Positions 55,505 to 64,000 of a DNA stretch of 64,000 bases are shown here, piece by piece (position 1 is the first letter of the stretch; each line of letters starts with the position of its first letter). The stretch lies in the NCBI RefSeq assembly GCF_900114455.1, contig NZ_FOTC01000001.1:248001-312000 (forward strand). The letters run 5' to 3'. The notes below the pieces were generated by a model. It did not search any database and was not told the origin of the DNA. It saw only the letters and a list, made by a program, of their open reading frames with translations. The stretch is from Halogranum rubrum. GTDB taxonomy: Archaea > Halobacteriota > Halobacteria > Halobacteriales > Haloferacaceae. Both the position numbers and the translations under genes were made by a program.

Positions 55505-56872
55505 GATGTAAGTAACCACGGTCTAAAGGCCGTGGCATTCAGCATGGACTCCCGCTCTACCCAAACCTGGGACGGATGTAAGCCCGTTCGCGTTCAGCAT
55601 CCCGCTGTTCAAGCGCACACCTACGGGTGCGCCTCCCTCGGCCCCGGTTTGGTTCCGAAGGAGTTTCAGACCGATGTTCTTCGCTGCGTTGTAGTCGCGG
55701 TGGTTCCGATACCCACACTTCTGACAACACATCGTATCGTTGCTGAGGTTGTCCTCGTGAGTGAATCCACAACTCGAACACCGACGACTCGTGTTTCGCG
55801 GATTTACCTGTGTGGTCGTGATTCCGTGTTTGGCTGCCTTGTACTCGACATACCCGTACAGGCGTCGGAACGCCCATACGTGTTGCCACGTTGCTTCGGG
55901 GATGTTCTCACGAATGTGGGTGAGGTTCTCGAAGGCGATGTACGAACAGCCGTAGTCTATGGCTTCGGTGACAAGTTCGTTCGCTACGCGGTGCAGATAC
56001 TGCTCGAATCGACCTGTCTCCGACTGTCCGACCGACTGTACGTTCTCGTGTGCCCACCGCGTTCCGCACTGTTGAAGCGAGCCACGTCGCTTCTCGTACT
56101 CACGTCGCCAGTGGTTGAACTCGTTCGCAGTCCAAAACGTCCCTGTCGAGGTGACAGCGATGTTCTTGACCCCAAGGTCAACGCCGAGAACCGTTCCGTT
56201 CTCGGGAAGGTCGGGGGCATCCACGTCCGCCTTTGTTCGGATGTGGAGGTAGAACGAGCCATTGCGACGGTGCAAAGTTGCACCTGTCTTTTCCCACCCG
56301 TCGGAGTGCAGATACTCCGCGTGTGGCGTGTGACGAGTTTCGTCGGGCAACACATAGTTGACGGCGACGCGACCATCGACAGTCGAGAGAGTGGCGTGGT
56401 CGTCGTAGAAGGTCACGTTGCGATGGTTGTACTCACAGAAACGCGAAGTGAACGTCGGCAACGACACCTTCTCACCTCGCTTCCACGTGGCGATGACCGA
56501 CTTAAGCGACTTAACCGCTTGGTTGCGAGCCGACTGCACGTGGTTGCTGTGAAGTCGTGTGGCGTCACGCACGTCATCATACGTCAACGATTGGAGTTGC
56601 GATGCTCGTGTTTCGACCCAATCACCCTCAGACGCGACACCGACGACGTAATTCGCAGCCCACAAAAATTCGTCAATCGTCTCGGAAAGAAGATTCGCGT
56701 CACTGTCACTCACGTCAAGTTTGACAGGGACAGTGCGACGAATCTCCATACAATCACAACAATCCGAATGCTTATAAGTGTCAACAAACGGTGGGGGAGT
56801 CAGCCCACCAACGAGCGTAGTATAGATAGCAAGTGTCGGTTTCCTCCCGCGCCTAAAGTCGCGGGTATCCAC
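55505..56872 (-). mobile_element. IS1341-type element (tnpB only) with matching end hairpins
   Basis: Both ends carry 6-bp hairpins with related loops: CCACGG-TCTAAAGG-CCGTGG (55516-55535, right end) and CCCGCG-CCTAAAGT-CGCGGG (56846-56865, left end). The shared CTAAAG loop marks paired ends of an IS200/IS605-superfamily element. There is no tnpA. The left end is 11 bp from the CBS gene start. Borders are approximate to a few bases. Confidence 0.75.
55523..56749 (-). CDS. tnpB: TnpB RNA-guided endonuclease
   Basis: The 408-residue protein has intact RuvC residues: Asp in [15 protein letters not shown], Glu in [11 protein letters not shown] and Asp in [11 protein letters not shown], with a CSSC...CQKC zinc ribbon. 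The stop codon lies in the loop of the right-end hairpin, as in the family where the 3' end doubles as guide-RNA scaffold. It differs clearly from the other TnpB of this window (over half of positions in the N-terminal part differ), so the two elements are not recent duplicates. The ATG at 56749 gives the family N-terminus [14 protein letters not shown]. Confidence 0.9.
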
Positions 56873-59483: not shown

Positions 59484-61817
59484 TTAGCTGCCGCCGAGCA
59501 CGCGCTTGAACAGCGTGAACGTCAGCAGGGTGAAGAACAGACCGTTCAACATCCCCTGACTCGCCGCGAGCACTCGGGCACCCGCACCGAGCGGGTTGAT
59601 GTCGCCATAGCCGACGGTGCTGAAGCTGATGTAGCTGTAGTAGACGTTGTCGAAGAGCACTTCGAGCGCCGTCTTGTCCACCGCCCCCGGGTCGAGGACG
59701 CTCCCGGCCTGCGTCAGGAACGGCCCACCGAACGCGTACAGCAGACCGAACAGCGCCGGTAGGAGGAAGGTGAACGCGGCGATTCGAGGAAGTCGGTTGC
59801 CGTAGCCACAGGTGACCTGCATGAACAGGTTGAGACCGACGCTCGCGGCCTTCTTCCCGCGCCCCCATGCGTTCAGCGAGTACTCGTTGAGGATGATGTC
59901 GAGGTTCTTCTTTCGGTTGTAGTAGTAGTGTTTGAACTCGAACTCACGACTCGCCGGTGTGTCGCCGACGGCGTCGGCGCTATCCTGCGCTTTTCGGTAC
60001 GTCTCCTCGACGATTTCGTTCGTCATCTCGACGGCGAACTGTCCCGTCGCCTCGTTCCCGGTGAAGTCGTGAATCGTCCAGTCGTTGCGTTCGAGATACG
60101 CGTGGTGGTTGCTAAAGTCGAAGTGGTCGAAGTCGGTGAGACAGAACCGAAAGCTGTCGAGCAGTTCGTGTTCGTTGCCTTCACCCTCCAGTTGGAGGTC
60201 ACCGACCGTCGCCCGCGTGAGGTCGTACGGGATGGCGCTGCCGCCGACCTGTGAGATGGTCCCCCCGTCGATTGTCGCGTCGGTGAGGTCGACGTAGGTG
60301 TCGCGGTCACCGCCGAGCAGTCTGAACGTCGCCGTCTCGTGGAAGGCGGCCTGCCGGAAGTCACACCGCTCCTGGAACGTCGTCTCTCGAAACGAGACGT
60401 TGGTGAAGTTCGCCGCCTCGAACGTGGCGCTGTCGTGGAAGTCGGCCTCGTCGAACGAGGCGTTCTCTTCGAGATGTCGCGCTTCACCCTCGAACACCGT
60501 CCCACGGAAGGCGGCCATCCCGTGGAACGTCGCACCACGGAAACTCGCGTCCTCGTTGAACCGTGCCTCGTCGAAGCGGACGAGTCGGTCGAACGCGGCG
60601 TGTTCGAAGGTGACGTCGCCGTCGAACGTCGCTTCGGTGGCGACGACGTCGTCGCCGAAACTACTCTCCGTGAAGTCGACTTCGCCCTCGAACGTCGCGT
60701 GGACGAGGTCGAACTCACCGTCGACCTGCACGCGGTGGCAGTCCGCACGCGCGGTGAACGTCGCTCGGTCGAAGTTGACCGGCCCCTTGAACGCGACGTC
60801 CTTGAAGTCCGCGTAGCGGAACTTCGCGAGTTTGTAGTCGGCCTCGCGTTCGAACACCGCACCTTCGAACGTCACGTCGTCGTTCGTCGTCCGACTACCG
60901 CCGCGGAACTCGACGCCGCGGAACTCGGCCAACTGGACGAACCGCACGTCGGCGAAACTCACGTCGTCGGCGAAGCGCGCCTCGTCGAAGTCGGCCATCT
61001 GTTGGAACGTCGCCCCGTCGAACCGGGCGTCACCCTCGAACGTCGCGTGCTCGAAGTCCGACCCGGCGGTGAACTGCGTGCCCTCGAACGTGACGTAGTC
61101 GAACGTCGCCTGTCGGAAACTCGCGTCGTCGCGAAACGTCGCGTCGGCGAACGAGAGGTGGTCGTCGAGGACGTGGCTACTCCCGTTGGTCTCGACGTTT
61201 CGGAAGTGTACGATGCCCTGAAACGTCGCCCCGCGAAAGGTCGTGTCGCTCTGGAACGTCGTCTCGTCACAGTCGACGTCGCCCTGAAACACCGCGCCGT
61301 CGAAGTGGACGTCCTGTTGGAACGTCGCCTCGTCCGTCGTGACGTCGCCACGGACCGTCACCTCGTCGGCTTCGACGTCGCCAGTGACGGTGGCGTCTTC
61401 GAACTTGAGGCGGCCGACCGTCGCCTCCTGGAGGATGAGTCCCTGGTCGAGACGGCCGTGCGTGAAGTCCAACCCTTCGATATCGGCGTGTCGGAAGTTG
61501 AGCACGTGGTTGGTCGCCCCGTTGACGTCCTGATACGTGAACGAGAGGTGTGGCAAGTCCGCGCCGACGTACTCGTTGACGCGCGTGTCTGGCGACTGGA
61601 GGTTCGCCCGAAGCGACTCGACGATGTCCTCCGACCGAACGTCGCACGCGGCGCGTTCGTCTCGACTCATATGGAAGACGCAGTGGTCGCTGTCGGGGTG
61701 CGGTTCGTGTGGGCACTCCCACGTCGTCTGCAGTCCGGCGTCGGTCTCCGTCGACGGGTCGAACGTGTATCGACAGGTCGCCGACATCAGGGCTGGTTGT
61801 GTCTCATTTCTCGACAT
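59484..61817 (-). CDS. Pentapeptide-repeat potassium-channel fusion
   Basis: The 777-residue protein has three parts. Residues ~13-50 hold a Cys/His cluster (CRYTF, WECPHEP, HCVFH) likely to bind zinc. Residues ~95-590 are more than sixty pentapeptide-type repeats (ATFEGDARFDGATF), expected to form a right-handed beta-helix. The C-terminus is a two-helix pore: CGYGNRLPR (~660), the first membrane helix (~673-695), the selectivity filter TVGYGD (734-739) and the second helix (~746-772). The filter is that of potassium channels. The beta-helix should sit in the cytoplasm as a gating or docking part. Confidence 0.88.
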   Translation of the reverse strand: MSRNETQPALMSATCRYTFDPSTETDAGLQTTWECPHEPHPDSDHCVFHMSRDERAACDVRSEDIVESLRANLQSPDTRVNEYVGADLPHLSFTYQDVNGATNHVLNFRHADIEGLDFTHGRLDQGLILQEATVGRLKFEDATVTGDVEADEVTVRGDVTTDEATFQQDVHFDGAVFQGDVDCDETTFQSDTTFRGATFQGIVHFRNVETNGSSHVLDDHLSFADATFRDDASFRQATFDYVTFEGTQFTAGSDFEHATFEGDARFDGATFQQMADFDEARFADDVSFADVRFVQLAEFRGVEFRGGSRTTNDDVTFEGAVFEREADYKLAKFRYADFKDVAFKGPVNFDRATFTARADCHRVQVDGEFDLVHATFEGEVDFTESSFGDDVVATEATFDGDVTFEHAAFDRLVRFDEARFNEDASFRGATFHGMAAFRGTVFEGEARHLEENASFDEADFHDSATFEAANFTNVSFRETTFQERCDFRQAAFHETATFRLLGGDRDTYVDLTDATIDGGTISQVGGSAIPYDLTRATVGDLQLEGEGNEHELLDSFRFCLTDFDHFDFSNHHAYLERNDWTIHDFTGNEATGQFAVEMTNEIVEETYRKAQDSADAVGDTPASREFEFKHYYYNRKKNLDIILNEYSLNAWGRGKKAASVGLNLFMQVTCGYGNRLPRIAAFTFLLPALFGLLYAFGGPFLTQAGSVLDPGAVDKTALEVLFDNVYYSYISFSTVGYGDINPLGAGARVLAASQGMLNGLFFTLLTFTLFKRVLGGS

Positions 61818-61944: not shown

Positions 61945-62895
61945 TCACTCCAGTACGGCACGACGCTCGTCTGGCGACAGTTCGGCGTGAACGGCGTTCG
62001 GCGAGCAGTGTTCACACTCGCAAGCCGGATTGGTGCTCTGTTCGTACGTCCACAGCGGTCGGCCAAAGAGGAAGAACGCCTCCAGTTGGTGGCGTTCGAC
62101 GACGGCGTCGGCGGCCCGTCCGCAGTTCGGACACCACTCCTCGTCGTCGGTGGGCACCTGGAAGGTCACCTTCCGGCGGCCGAATCCGGCGTTAGAGTAG
62201 GCTTCGCGTCGCGACATCTCCACGAGGTCCTCGGCCGGGTAGGGTTTCTCGTCGACTTCGTTGTCGAACCCGGCCTCGCTGACGACGTCGGCGGTGAGAT
62301 ACGGCCCGACGTGGACGGTGTTCTCGTAGCCGACGAAGTGAATCGACAGTTCCGCGCTCCGGCCGTCGACGTGGACGTCGTGACCGTGACCGACGAGGTA
62401 GAGTTCGAGGTTCTGCCGCGTCTTCGTCAGTTCCACCTCGTGGTCCATCCCGACGGCGTAGACGCCCGTCGAGGGGTCGCTCGCCGACCCCGACTGTTGC
62501 CATCCGACCGTCGCGACGTCGTACTCGTCGGGCGTCGCATCGGGCGTCTTCTCGTCGGTGTAGACGTTCTCCGCACCGGGCGCGGTGAACGCGCTGTCGG
62601 CGGCGTCGACGGCGACGAACACGTCCTCGGCGTCGCTGACGACGACGTCACCGTCGACCCGTTCGACGTAGCCGTCTTCGAGGTTGCCGCCGATGGCCGT
62701 CTCCGCGTCGGGGACGGTCGTGTCGCTCTCGACGGCCTGATGCGTGAACACGTACTCGGCGTTCTGTACCGTGAGGTCGCCGCCGACGCTGTCTGACGTG
62801 ACGAACACGTCTGCGGGGTCTCTGAGTTCGACTGGCGGCCGTTCGGAGCCAGCGAGCGTCACGTCACCGTCGTAGTGCTGTGGATTTGCGGTCAT
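61945..62895 (-). CDS. Uncharacterised protein with C-terminal zinc-binding region
   Basis: The 316-residue protein starts MTANPQHYDGDVTL. Residues ~10-150 are repetitive beta strands (DVVVSDAEDVFVA, AENVYTDEK), perhaps a beta-solenoid. The C-terminal third has WCPNCGRAADAVVERHQLE and PACECEHCSPN, a four-Cys zinc site. It overlaps the DUF2617 gene by 4 bp and is part of an operon with spermidine synthase. I do not recognise the family. Confidence 0.65.
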   Translation of the reverse strand: MTANPQHYDGDVTLAGSERPPVELRDPADVFVTSDSVGGDLTVQNAEYVFTHQAVESDTTVPDAETAIGGNLEDGYVERVDGDVVVSDAEDVFVAVDAADSAFTAPGAENVYTDEKTPDATPDEYDVATVGWQQSGSASDPSTGVYAVGMDHEVELTKTRQNLELYLVGHGHDVHVDGRSAELSIHFVGYENTVHVGPYLTADVVSEAGFDNEVDEKPYPAEDLVEMSRREAYSNAGFGRRKVTFQVPTDDEEWCPNCGRAADAVVERHQLEAFFLFGRPLWTYEQSTNPACECEHCSPNAVHAELSPDERRAVLE

Positions 62896-63380
62896 CGTTC
62901 TCGAAGGTCGAAAGTCGTCTCGGTGTAGAGTGCGAGTCCGTGCTCGGGGTAGGTATGGTACGTCTCGTAGCCCGCGTCGTCGACGCGGATGGTGGTCCAC
63001 GCGTCGGGACCGAACTGGTAGGCCACCGTCGACTCCTCGGGGCCAGGGAATGCGGCGAGCGGCTTTCCGACGACTGTCGTCGTCGCCGCGATTCGGGCAC
63101 TCTCGAAGCGGAACTCACGGTCGACGTCGGTCGAGAGCGGCGTCTCGTGGCTCTGCTCCGCCGACAGCGGCGTACACGAACAGAGTTCGTGGAAGTCGAG
63201 TTCGGGCAGGCCGACGTAGTGCGACTCGCCGATGACGGTGAACACCGCGGGCGACCCGAGCAGGTCGTCGGGGTGGACCGTCTTCACGTCGAGTTCGTCG
63301 AGCGCGGGCGTCTCGCGGGCGTACTCGAAGTACAGTTCCGCGGGCGTCTCGATGGGTTCAGGGGATGTGTTGGAGGACAT
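62892..63380 (-). CDS. DUF2617 family protein
   Basis: From ATG 63380 the product has 162 residues. VFTVIGESHYVGLPELDFHELCSCTPL and YEFRFESARI-type strands resemble DUF2617 proteins that accompany spermidine synthases in actinobacteria and haloarchaea. The start is 2 bp after the spermidine synthase stop, and the end overlaps the next gene by 4 bp. Function unknown; the neighbourhood suggests polyamine metabolism or a related membrane process. Confidence 0.7.
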   Translation of the reverse strand: MSSNTSPEPIETPAELYFEYARETPALDELDVKTVHPDDLLGSPAVFTVIGESHYVGLPELDFHELCSCTPLSAEQSHETPLSTDVDREFRFESARIAATTTVVGKPLAAFPGPEESTVAYQFGPDAWTTIRVDDAGYETYHTYPEHGLALYTETTFDLRER

Positions 63381-63382
63381 GG

Positions 63383-64000
63383 TTAGGTGTCGACAAGAAT
63401 GTCGTAGTTCGGGTGGAAGATGGAGTTTACCCGCACGCCGCGATAATGAGGGACCGGACGCCACTCGGCGTCGTCGTAGCGGTCACTGTACCGTCTCACG
63501 TAGTCGGTCCCATTTTCGGGGGCGAGCGGGTCGCGTTCGCCGGGCGCGAGGAGGTAGAACCGTTCGACGCGCTCGGTCTCGCCGTCGCTGTCGAGGTCTT
63601 CCCACGCCCAGTAGGGTAGCTGGTGGGTGAACCCCGCGGCGCGGACGGTGTTGGTGAACGCCTTGTGGTGTTCGGGGTAGCTGTCGGCGGAGTACGCCCA
63701 CGCGACGACCATCCCGTCGTCGGTGAGTCGCTGGCTGGCCGACCGGTAGAACTCCGCCGAGTAGAGTTTCAGCAGGTCGTCGTCCGTCGCGCCGGGGACG
63801 TCGAGGAGGATGAGGTCGTACGTCTCGTTCGTCTGCTGGAGGTAGCGATAGCCGTCCGTGACTGTCGTGTTCAGACGGTCGTACTCGTAGGCGTCGTCGT
63901 GCCAGCGGCTGAAGAACGGGTCGTCTTTCGTCCGGTTCATGAACTCGGCGTCGAGATCGACGTGGTCGACGGTGACGTCGTACTCCCGAAGATGGTCGAT
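63383..64000 (-). CDS. Spermidine synthase family protein, cut by the window end
   Basis: The frame is open to base 64000, so the N-terminus is outside. The 205 visible residues contain the methyltransferase-type nucleotide-binding fold of polyamine aminopropyltransferases: the acidic VDLDAEFMNRTK segment, YDLILLDVPGATDDDLLKLYS and FYRSASQRLTDDGMVVAW. The longer form with membrane-embedded N-terminus (PRK03612 type) is expected upstream. It heads the DUF2617/zinc-protein operon. Confidence 0.85.
   Translation of the reverse strand: MDHLREYDVTVDHVDLDAEFMNRTKDDPFFSRWHDDAYEYDRLNTTVTDGYRYLQQTNETYDLILLDVPGATDDDLLKLYSAEFYRSASQRLTDDGMVVAWAYSADSYPEHHKAFTNTVRAAGFTHQLPYWAWEDLDSDGETERVERFYLLAPGERDPLAPENGTDYVRRYSDRYDDAEWRPVPHYRGVRVNSIFHPNYDILVDT

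Follow-up and report, generated by a model that had tools for sequence, protein, structure and literature searches.

A haloarchaeal potassium-channel pore fused to a long beta-helix and linked to an operon with a spermidine-synthase-like gene

The window analyzed here, a stretch of 64,000 nucleotides from the Halogranum rubrum contig NZ_FOTC01000001.1, codes for a protein in which a potassium-channel pore with two transmembrane helices (2TM) is joined to a long soluble beta-helix (Table 1). We consider it probable that this protein is a ligand-gated potassium channel with the beta-helix as its sensor. In the literature on pentapeptide-repeat potassium channels, we found no description of this channel family. 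The architecture itself is not a one-off. With this family, a layout like that of the solved channel HalA is seen in archaea and with a very long modular beta-helix. The most informative feature of the locus is an operon, which was missed by an earlier note on the same DNA.

Table 1. Features of the channel and of the adjacent operon genes (window positions, or contig positions where marked C6)
Feature	Residues	Position	Strand	Basis
Channel gene, 777 aa (Cys/His cap, beta-helix, helical linker, 2TM potassium pore)		59484-61817	(-)	
Cys/His knuckle (C15, C35, H37, H40, C46, H49)	15-49	61671-61775	(-)	alignment
Beta-helix (~475 residues)	~71-545	60183-61607	(-)	AF2, periodicity, structure matches
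Linker (helices ~568-577, 600-617, 620-644, 650-670)	546-669	59811-60182	(-)	conservation, model
CGYGN, start of (C)GYGxxxxR element	670-674	59796-59810	(-)	alignment, model
M1	676-696	59730-59792	(-)	C-terminal model
Pore helix and filter	717-739	59601-59669	(-)	Pfam, profile, model
Filter TVGYGD	734-739	59601-59618	(-)	after pore helix 717-733
M2 (protein ends 4 residues on)	745-773	59499-59585	(-)	C-terminal model
c4, repetitive, probably solenoid, C-terminal zinc ribbon (CxxCG ... ECxxC)		61945-62895	(-)	sequence
c1, DUF2617		62892-63380	(-)	PF10936 above cut-off; conserved GxSH and TxHxYPE
c2, 585 aa, 3' part in window		63383-64000, on to C6:313140	(-)	PF01564, E 5.9e-16
c3, probable lipoprotein		C6:313258-313833, outside window		Tat-like signal in relatives

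Results

The channel gene and its pore

The bounds of the open reading frame are exact. It starts with ATG, and its first residues (MSRNE) recur in the orthologues L008 and L009. Sixteen orthologues align over essentially the full length with 65-81% identity; the gene is real and under selection. Pfam recognizes Pentapeptide_3 (PF13576) in nine stretches (E 3.5e-61, 203.6 bits, above cut-off) and Ion_trans_2 (PF07885) near the C-terminus (E 2.8e-9, 37.1 bits against a cut-off of 22.5). Structures were predicted for the monomer only, either as a full-length AF2 run or from the last 238 residues with 58 relatives. The C-terminus was poor in the full-length run (pLDDT <50) and good only with the wider alignment. 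The run on the last 238 residues reached a mean pLDDT of 84 and predicted the linker helices, M1, pore helix, filter, and M2.

The earlier note had proposed that a long, soluble beta-helix is attached to the pore of a potassium channel. This proposal is borne out by the Ion_trans_2 match, by the position of TVGYGD between M1 and M2, and by a confident model of the beta-helix. A pore loop is predicted between the two membrane helices, and the filter is conserved: the channel and its 16 orthologues all contain TVGYGD or TIGYGD (17/17), and TxGYG is kept in 58/58 aligned relatives. Within the clade of operonic channels the last filter position varies (TIGYGG, TIGYGN). The family profile matches solved potassium channels with E values down to 6e-9, and the C-terminal model superimposes on KirBac3.1 and NaK with Z ~10. 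The potassium pore and its fold are thus well supported. M1, pore helix, TxGYG-type filter region, and M2 are common to this protein and KcsA, KirBac3.1, and NaK. These channels carry a Kir domain, an RCK domain, or neither, whereas the window channel carries an N-terminal beta-helix. One long family member outside the set of 58 (L034:2608-3369) has a degenerate filter, TLEYVG; it is one of two large adjoining paralogues in G054 (L052:4380-13108).

Haloarchaea keep potassium near electrochemical equilibrium, so that a potassium conductance bears on the membrane potential. In view of this, and of the six Ion_trans_2 matches in the same genome, the puzzle of why a cell that contains molar potassium should need such a channel is weak.

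A second GYG directly before M1 had also been singled out. As a conserved family motif it stands: CGYGN is invariant in 17/17 orthologues, and its last glycine in 58/58 aligned relatives. As a second selectivity filter it is excluded, because no pore loop is possible at this position and because the cysteine and the tyrosine vary in the wider family (TCGHGMRP, LYGESPWR, AGYGYS, with histidine replacing tyrosine in some members). The element probably sits at the cytoplasmic face.

Relation to HalA

Residues 551-700 form the longest highly conserved stretch of the protein, with 64-74% invariant columns in the 17-sequence alignment, and the linker is modeled with pLDDT ~70-92 in the C-terminal run. 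With this C-terminal model as the query, Foldseek returned HalA (9nyi) at rank 1 (probability 1.00, E 0.057). VIA aligned HalA over 203 of 238 residues (model 2-236), linker included, at Z 9.5, a value that according to the aligner's own warning helical folds can reach. Nearly all other potassium channels listed cover the pore only (~134-238 of the C-terminal model). Given that these pore-only matches reach Z ~10, it is coverage and not Z that singles out HalA.

Sequence comparisons set limits to this relationship. The HalA family model NF051894 scores the window protein at 9.5 bits against a cut-off of 250; by the model's own criterion, this protein is not a HalA. The same model matches related pentapeptide channels under its cut-off, both across the repeats and across linker and pore (E values for the latter: L127, 8.6e-14; L132, 9.6e-5; L134, 0.0024). 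A sequence profile of the linker alone returned only chance matches from the PDB, HalA not among them. The link to HalA therefore rests on the fold comparison and on the family matches of the relatives. The VIA listing for the full-length model contains other beta-helices and no HalA, which says nothing either way. A second pentapeptide-type channel in the same genome (contig C10, L141:7779-8981; 400 aa, GYGD) scores 48.3 bits with the HalA family model, second only to L127 among ten proteins tested.

Judged from the model, the window protein shares the HalA fold in its membrane half, that is, in linker and 2TM pore, although a shared fold is no proof of shared function. HalA is reportedly a case of a 2TM channel with a soluble crown that can be gated by an unusual ligand. 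The title of PDB entry 9nyi describes HalA in complex with oligodeoxyadenylate. By analogy, the window protein probably follows the same principle as HalA, a channel carrying a soluble part that senses. The statement in the earlier note that the purpose of the beta-helix is unknown was too strong, since in HalA, a solved relative with a similar layout, the soluble part binds a ligand. The two proteins also differ. The HalA model has 338 positions in all, whereas the crown of the window channel is a much longer beta-helix with a 5+6 period and has an additional Cys/His cap. No HalB nucleotidyltransferase was detected by Pfam among the operon and neighboring genes scanned.

The beta-helix and its N-terminal cap

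In the full-length AF2 run, most blocks between residues ~110 and 510 are predicted with pLDDT >90. Compared with shuffled sequences, phenylalanine recurs with z 12.1 at lag 11 and z 8.2 at lag 5. Spacings of 5 (25 times) and 6 (18 times) dominate among the core phenylalanines, which explains the strongest period of 11 (5+6). The uniform five-residue spacing of the pentapeptide family is not what this beta-helix follows. Hence, the earlier description as a pentapeptide-repeat rod of ~500 residues is right about the beta-helix and its Pfam repeat match, and has to be corrected to a mostly alternating 5+6 spacing. With pentapeptide-repeat proteins (PF13576/PF00805; Qnr, MfpA, HetL) the channel has the repeat match in common, and such proteins are among the Foldseek and VIA matches of the beta-helix model (HetL, VIA Z 18.1). 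It differs from them by the 11-residue double repeat, by protruding loops, and by the membrane channel part.

The protruding loops are of the type F.GG....DD..F, with 4-5 residues between GG and DD. Compared with itself, the window protein gives similarity peaks at lags of 94, 138, and 232, among others. The longer relatives L092 and L098 extend the beta-helix by 94-residue modules with one such loop each, and the recurrence is exact (L092: loops at 235, 329, 423; L098: 496, 590, 684, 778). Members of the wider family reach ~1,160-1,340 residues, and the length of the helix varies ~twofold.

The Cys/His cluster reported near the N-terminus is indeed present, and its six residues are invariant in 17/17 sequences (channel and 16 orthologues). 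Many relatives, gammaproteobacteria included, contain a related C..C..CxFH/CxWH pattern. The cluster is absent in the Natrialba/Natrinema/Halopiger branch (L075-L078, L087) and is therefore not essential to the whole family. We regard this knuckle as a probable metal site.

Distribution

The C-terminal profile (linker plus pore) matches proteins in 200 of 391 sampled haloarchaeal genomes and in 62 of 86 genera. The search for the same domain order that the earlier note had called for recovered it in haloarchaea and gammaproteobacteria. The gammaproteobacterial members L117, L119, and L134 (327 residues), from a bacterial distribution that was sampled only, combine a C/H cluster with CxWHD, repeats, CGYG, and TLGYGD. 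The distribution of the family is patchy, and the genes are often on plasmids. An IS605-type OrfB/TnpB gene (window 55523-56872) lies a few kilobases from the channel gene.

The operon

Four genes (c4, c1, c2, c3) are encoded nearly abutting on the strand of the channel. The putative solenoid fold of c4, which matches DUF3060 weakly, is read from its sequence. The c2 protein has an N-terminal membrane region followed by a spermidine-synthase-like domain. Many haloarchaeal genera have the same gene set beside the channel; depending on the lineage, c4 lies upstream or downstream or is divergent. Since gene order differs between lineages, the linkage of channel and operon has survived rearrangement. 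A family channel lies within ~4.5 kb of DUF2617 in 32 of 34 DUF2617-positive genomes (19 and 30 genomes from two samples with 15 in common; positions compared by eye). With at most a few such channels per genome of 3-5 Mb, such proximity is expected by chance in ~1% or less per genome.

In the tree, the operonic channels fall into one clade of 30 rows (support 94/83). The operon was found in the fetched flanks of 24 of these rows; the other flanks may be too short. Genes in the flanks were called by a simple codon score, so that exact starts are approximate, and operon genes may be missed where assemblies are incomplete. Exceptions in both directions show that the link is not absolute: channels without the operon (copies in Haloferax elongans and H. 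larsenii; L058, L059/L144) and operon genes without a channel (G156, and also G157, on a short contig). The linkage suggests that a signal produced by the neighboring enzyme may open or close the channel. On the H. larsenii plasmid pHl5678-1 (L144:10031-22334), the operon-less channel gene adjoins a group of genes that resembles a contractile injection system, with annotations as DUF4157, AAA ATPase, DUF4255, and phage tail/sheath proteins.

The motifs GGGD and D.PG of c2 are invariant in 39 sequences and also occur in AdoMet-type aminopropyltransferases. AdoMet decarboxylase is absent from the window genome. Of 170 genomes of the family, just 2 were found to encode it, neither with a DUF2617 match. 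This absence makes ordinary spermidine synthesis by c2 unlikely, and its product, as far as the sequences tell, is probably not ordinary spermidine. A link between this product and the channel is plausible.

The nearest described bacterial cassette is PspA-linked and encodes a TM-spermidine-synthase-like enzyme, DUF2617 or DUF4247, DUF350, and a potassium channel; it has been linked to envelope stress (PMC11237479). The enzyme, DUF2617, a probable lipoprotein, and a potassium channel are common to this cassette and the haloarchaeal operon. In contrast to the bacterial cassette, the operon proteins scanned include no DUF350, DUF4178, DUF4247, or PspA. The operon also differs by having no AdoMet decarboxylase, an extra solenoid/zinc-ribbon gene, and a channel with a beta-helix.

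Discussion

The mechanism that we infer from these features is the following. Four subunits would assemble into a pore like that of KcsA or KirBac, and both termini as well as the entire beta-helix would be cytoplasmic. Together with the Cys/His cap, the beta-helix would serve as a sensory crown. Ligand binding to this crown would be relayed to M1 and the gate by way of the helical linker and the (C)GYGxxxxR element. In the operonic branch, the ligand or a modifier of the ligand would likely be the product of the co-encoded membrane enzyme (c2, with DUF2617). Opening would let potassium cross the membrane, with possible effects on the membrane potential, on ion balance, or on growth when the envelope is stressed or the cell is attacked. 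Support for a sensing role of the crown comes, by analogy, from the HalA fold and also from the conservation of the linker.

Alternatively, the beta-helix may mainly be a scaffold or tether that docks c4 or the membrane enzyme without sensing a small ligand. Beta-helices are common as binding scaffolds, the ~twofold variation in length by 94-residue modules is what one would expect of a spacer, and c4 is co-encoded in most operons. We nevertheless think this reading unlikely, since the solved relative HalA was determined with a ligand, and since few parts of the protein are as conserved as the linker, which suggests signal transfer over simple tethering.

Less probable is a role in defense. 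HalA is the effector channel of the Hailong anti-phage system, which also comprises the nucleotidyltransferase HalB (PMC13275509). The window channel could be an effector of abortive infection that a self-made molecule keeps shut until virus attack releases it, with the operon enzyme in place of HalB. HalA as the closest solved fold, the patchy and often plasmid-borne distribution, and the synthase next door point in this direction. Against this stand the lack of a nucleotidyltransferase among the operon genes scanned with Pfam, the lack of a PADLOC match for the window protein, the metabolic character of the annotated neighborhood of one copy, and the link of the nearest described bacterial cassette to envelope stress (PMC11237479).

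That the beta-helix mimics DNA to act on topoisomerases or DNA-binding proteins as in Qnr/MfpA, with the channel being incidental, is highly improbable: the repeat family is shared and Qnr, AlbG, and MfpA appear in structure searches, but the charge of the helix (-12 per 100 residues) is ordinary beside neighboring proteins (-7 to -18), the Qnr models stay far under their cut-offs (QnrC, 17.6 bits vs 500; Qnr, 11.5 vs 240), and in archaea and bacteria alike the beta-helix comes with a membrane channel, so that the DNA-mimic analogy of the earlier note is not supported.

Returning to the ligand-gated channel, a more specific version can be formulated as a signaling cassette. Here, a c2-type enzyme in cells without AdoMet decarboxylase would make or modify a signal that is read by the crown and gates the channel, in parallel to Hailong and with different chemistry. 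As a whole, this version is still doubtful. The family does carry the HalA layout into archaea and couples it with a beta-helix that is both very long and modular. With one branch tied to a specific enzyme cassette, it offers a concrete starting point in the search for a new channel ligand, and for the roles of DUF2617 and of spermidine-synthase-like enzymes in cells without AdoMet decarboxylase.

Three further loci concern genes of these types. In G050 (L145:8500-10093), an AdoMet decarboxylase gene adjoins the gene for a pentapeptide protein that also matched the channel query. An association of decarboxylase and channel is not general: in G017, the decarboxylase gene is found with a spermidine-synthase-like gene, away from the channel. 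Finally, an Ion_trans_2 gene of the window genome (L138:5933-8345; C6:1055932-1058344) is convergent with, and ~50 bases from, the only other gene for a spermidine-synthase-like membrane protein in this genome, a proximity that may be a coincidence.
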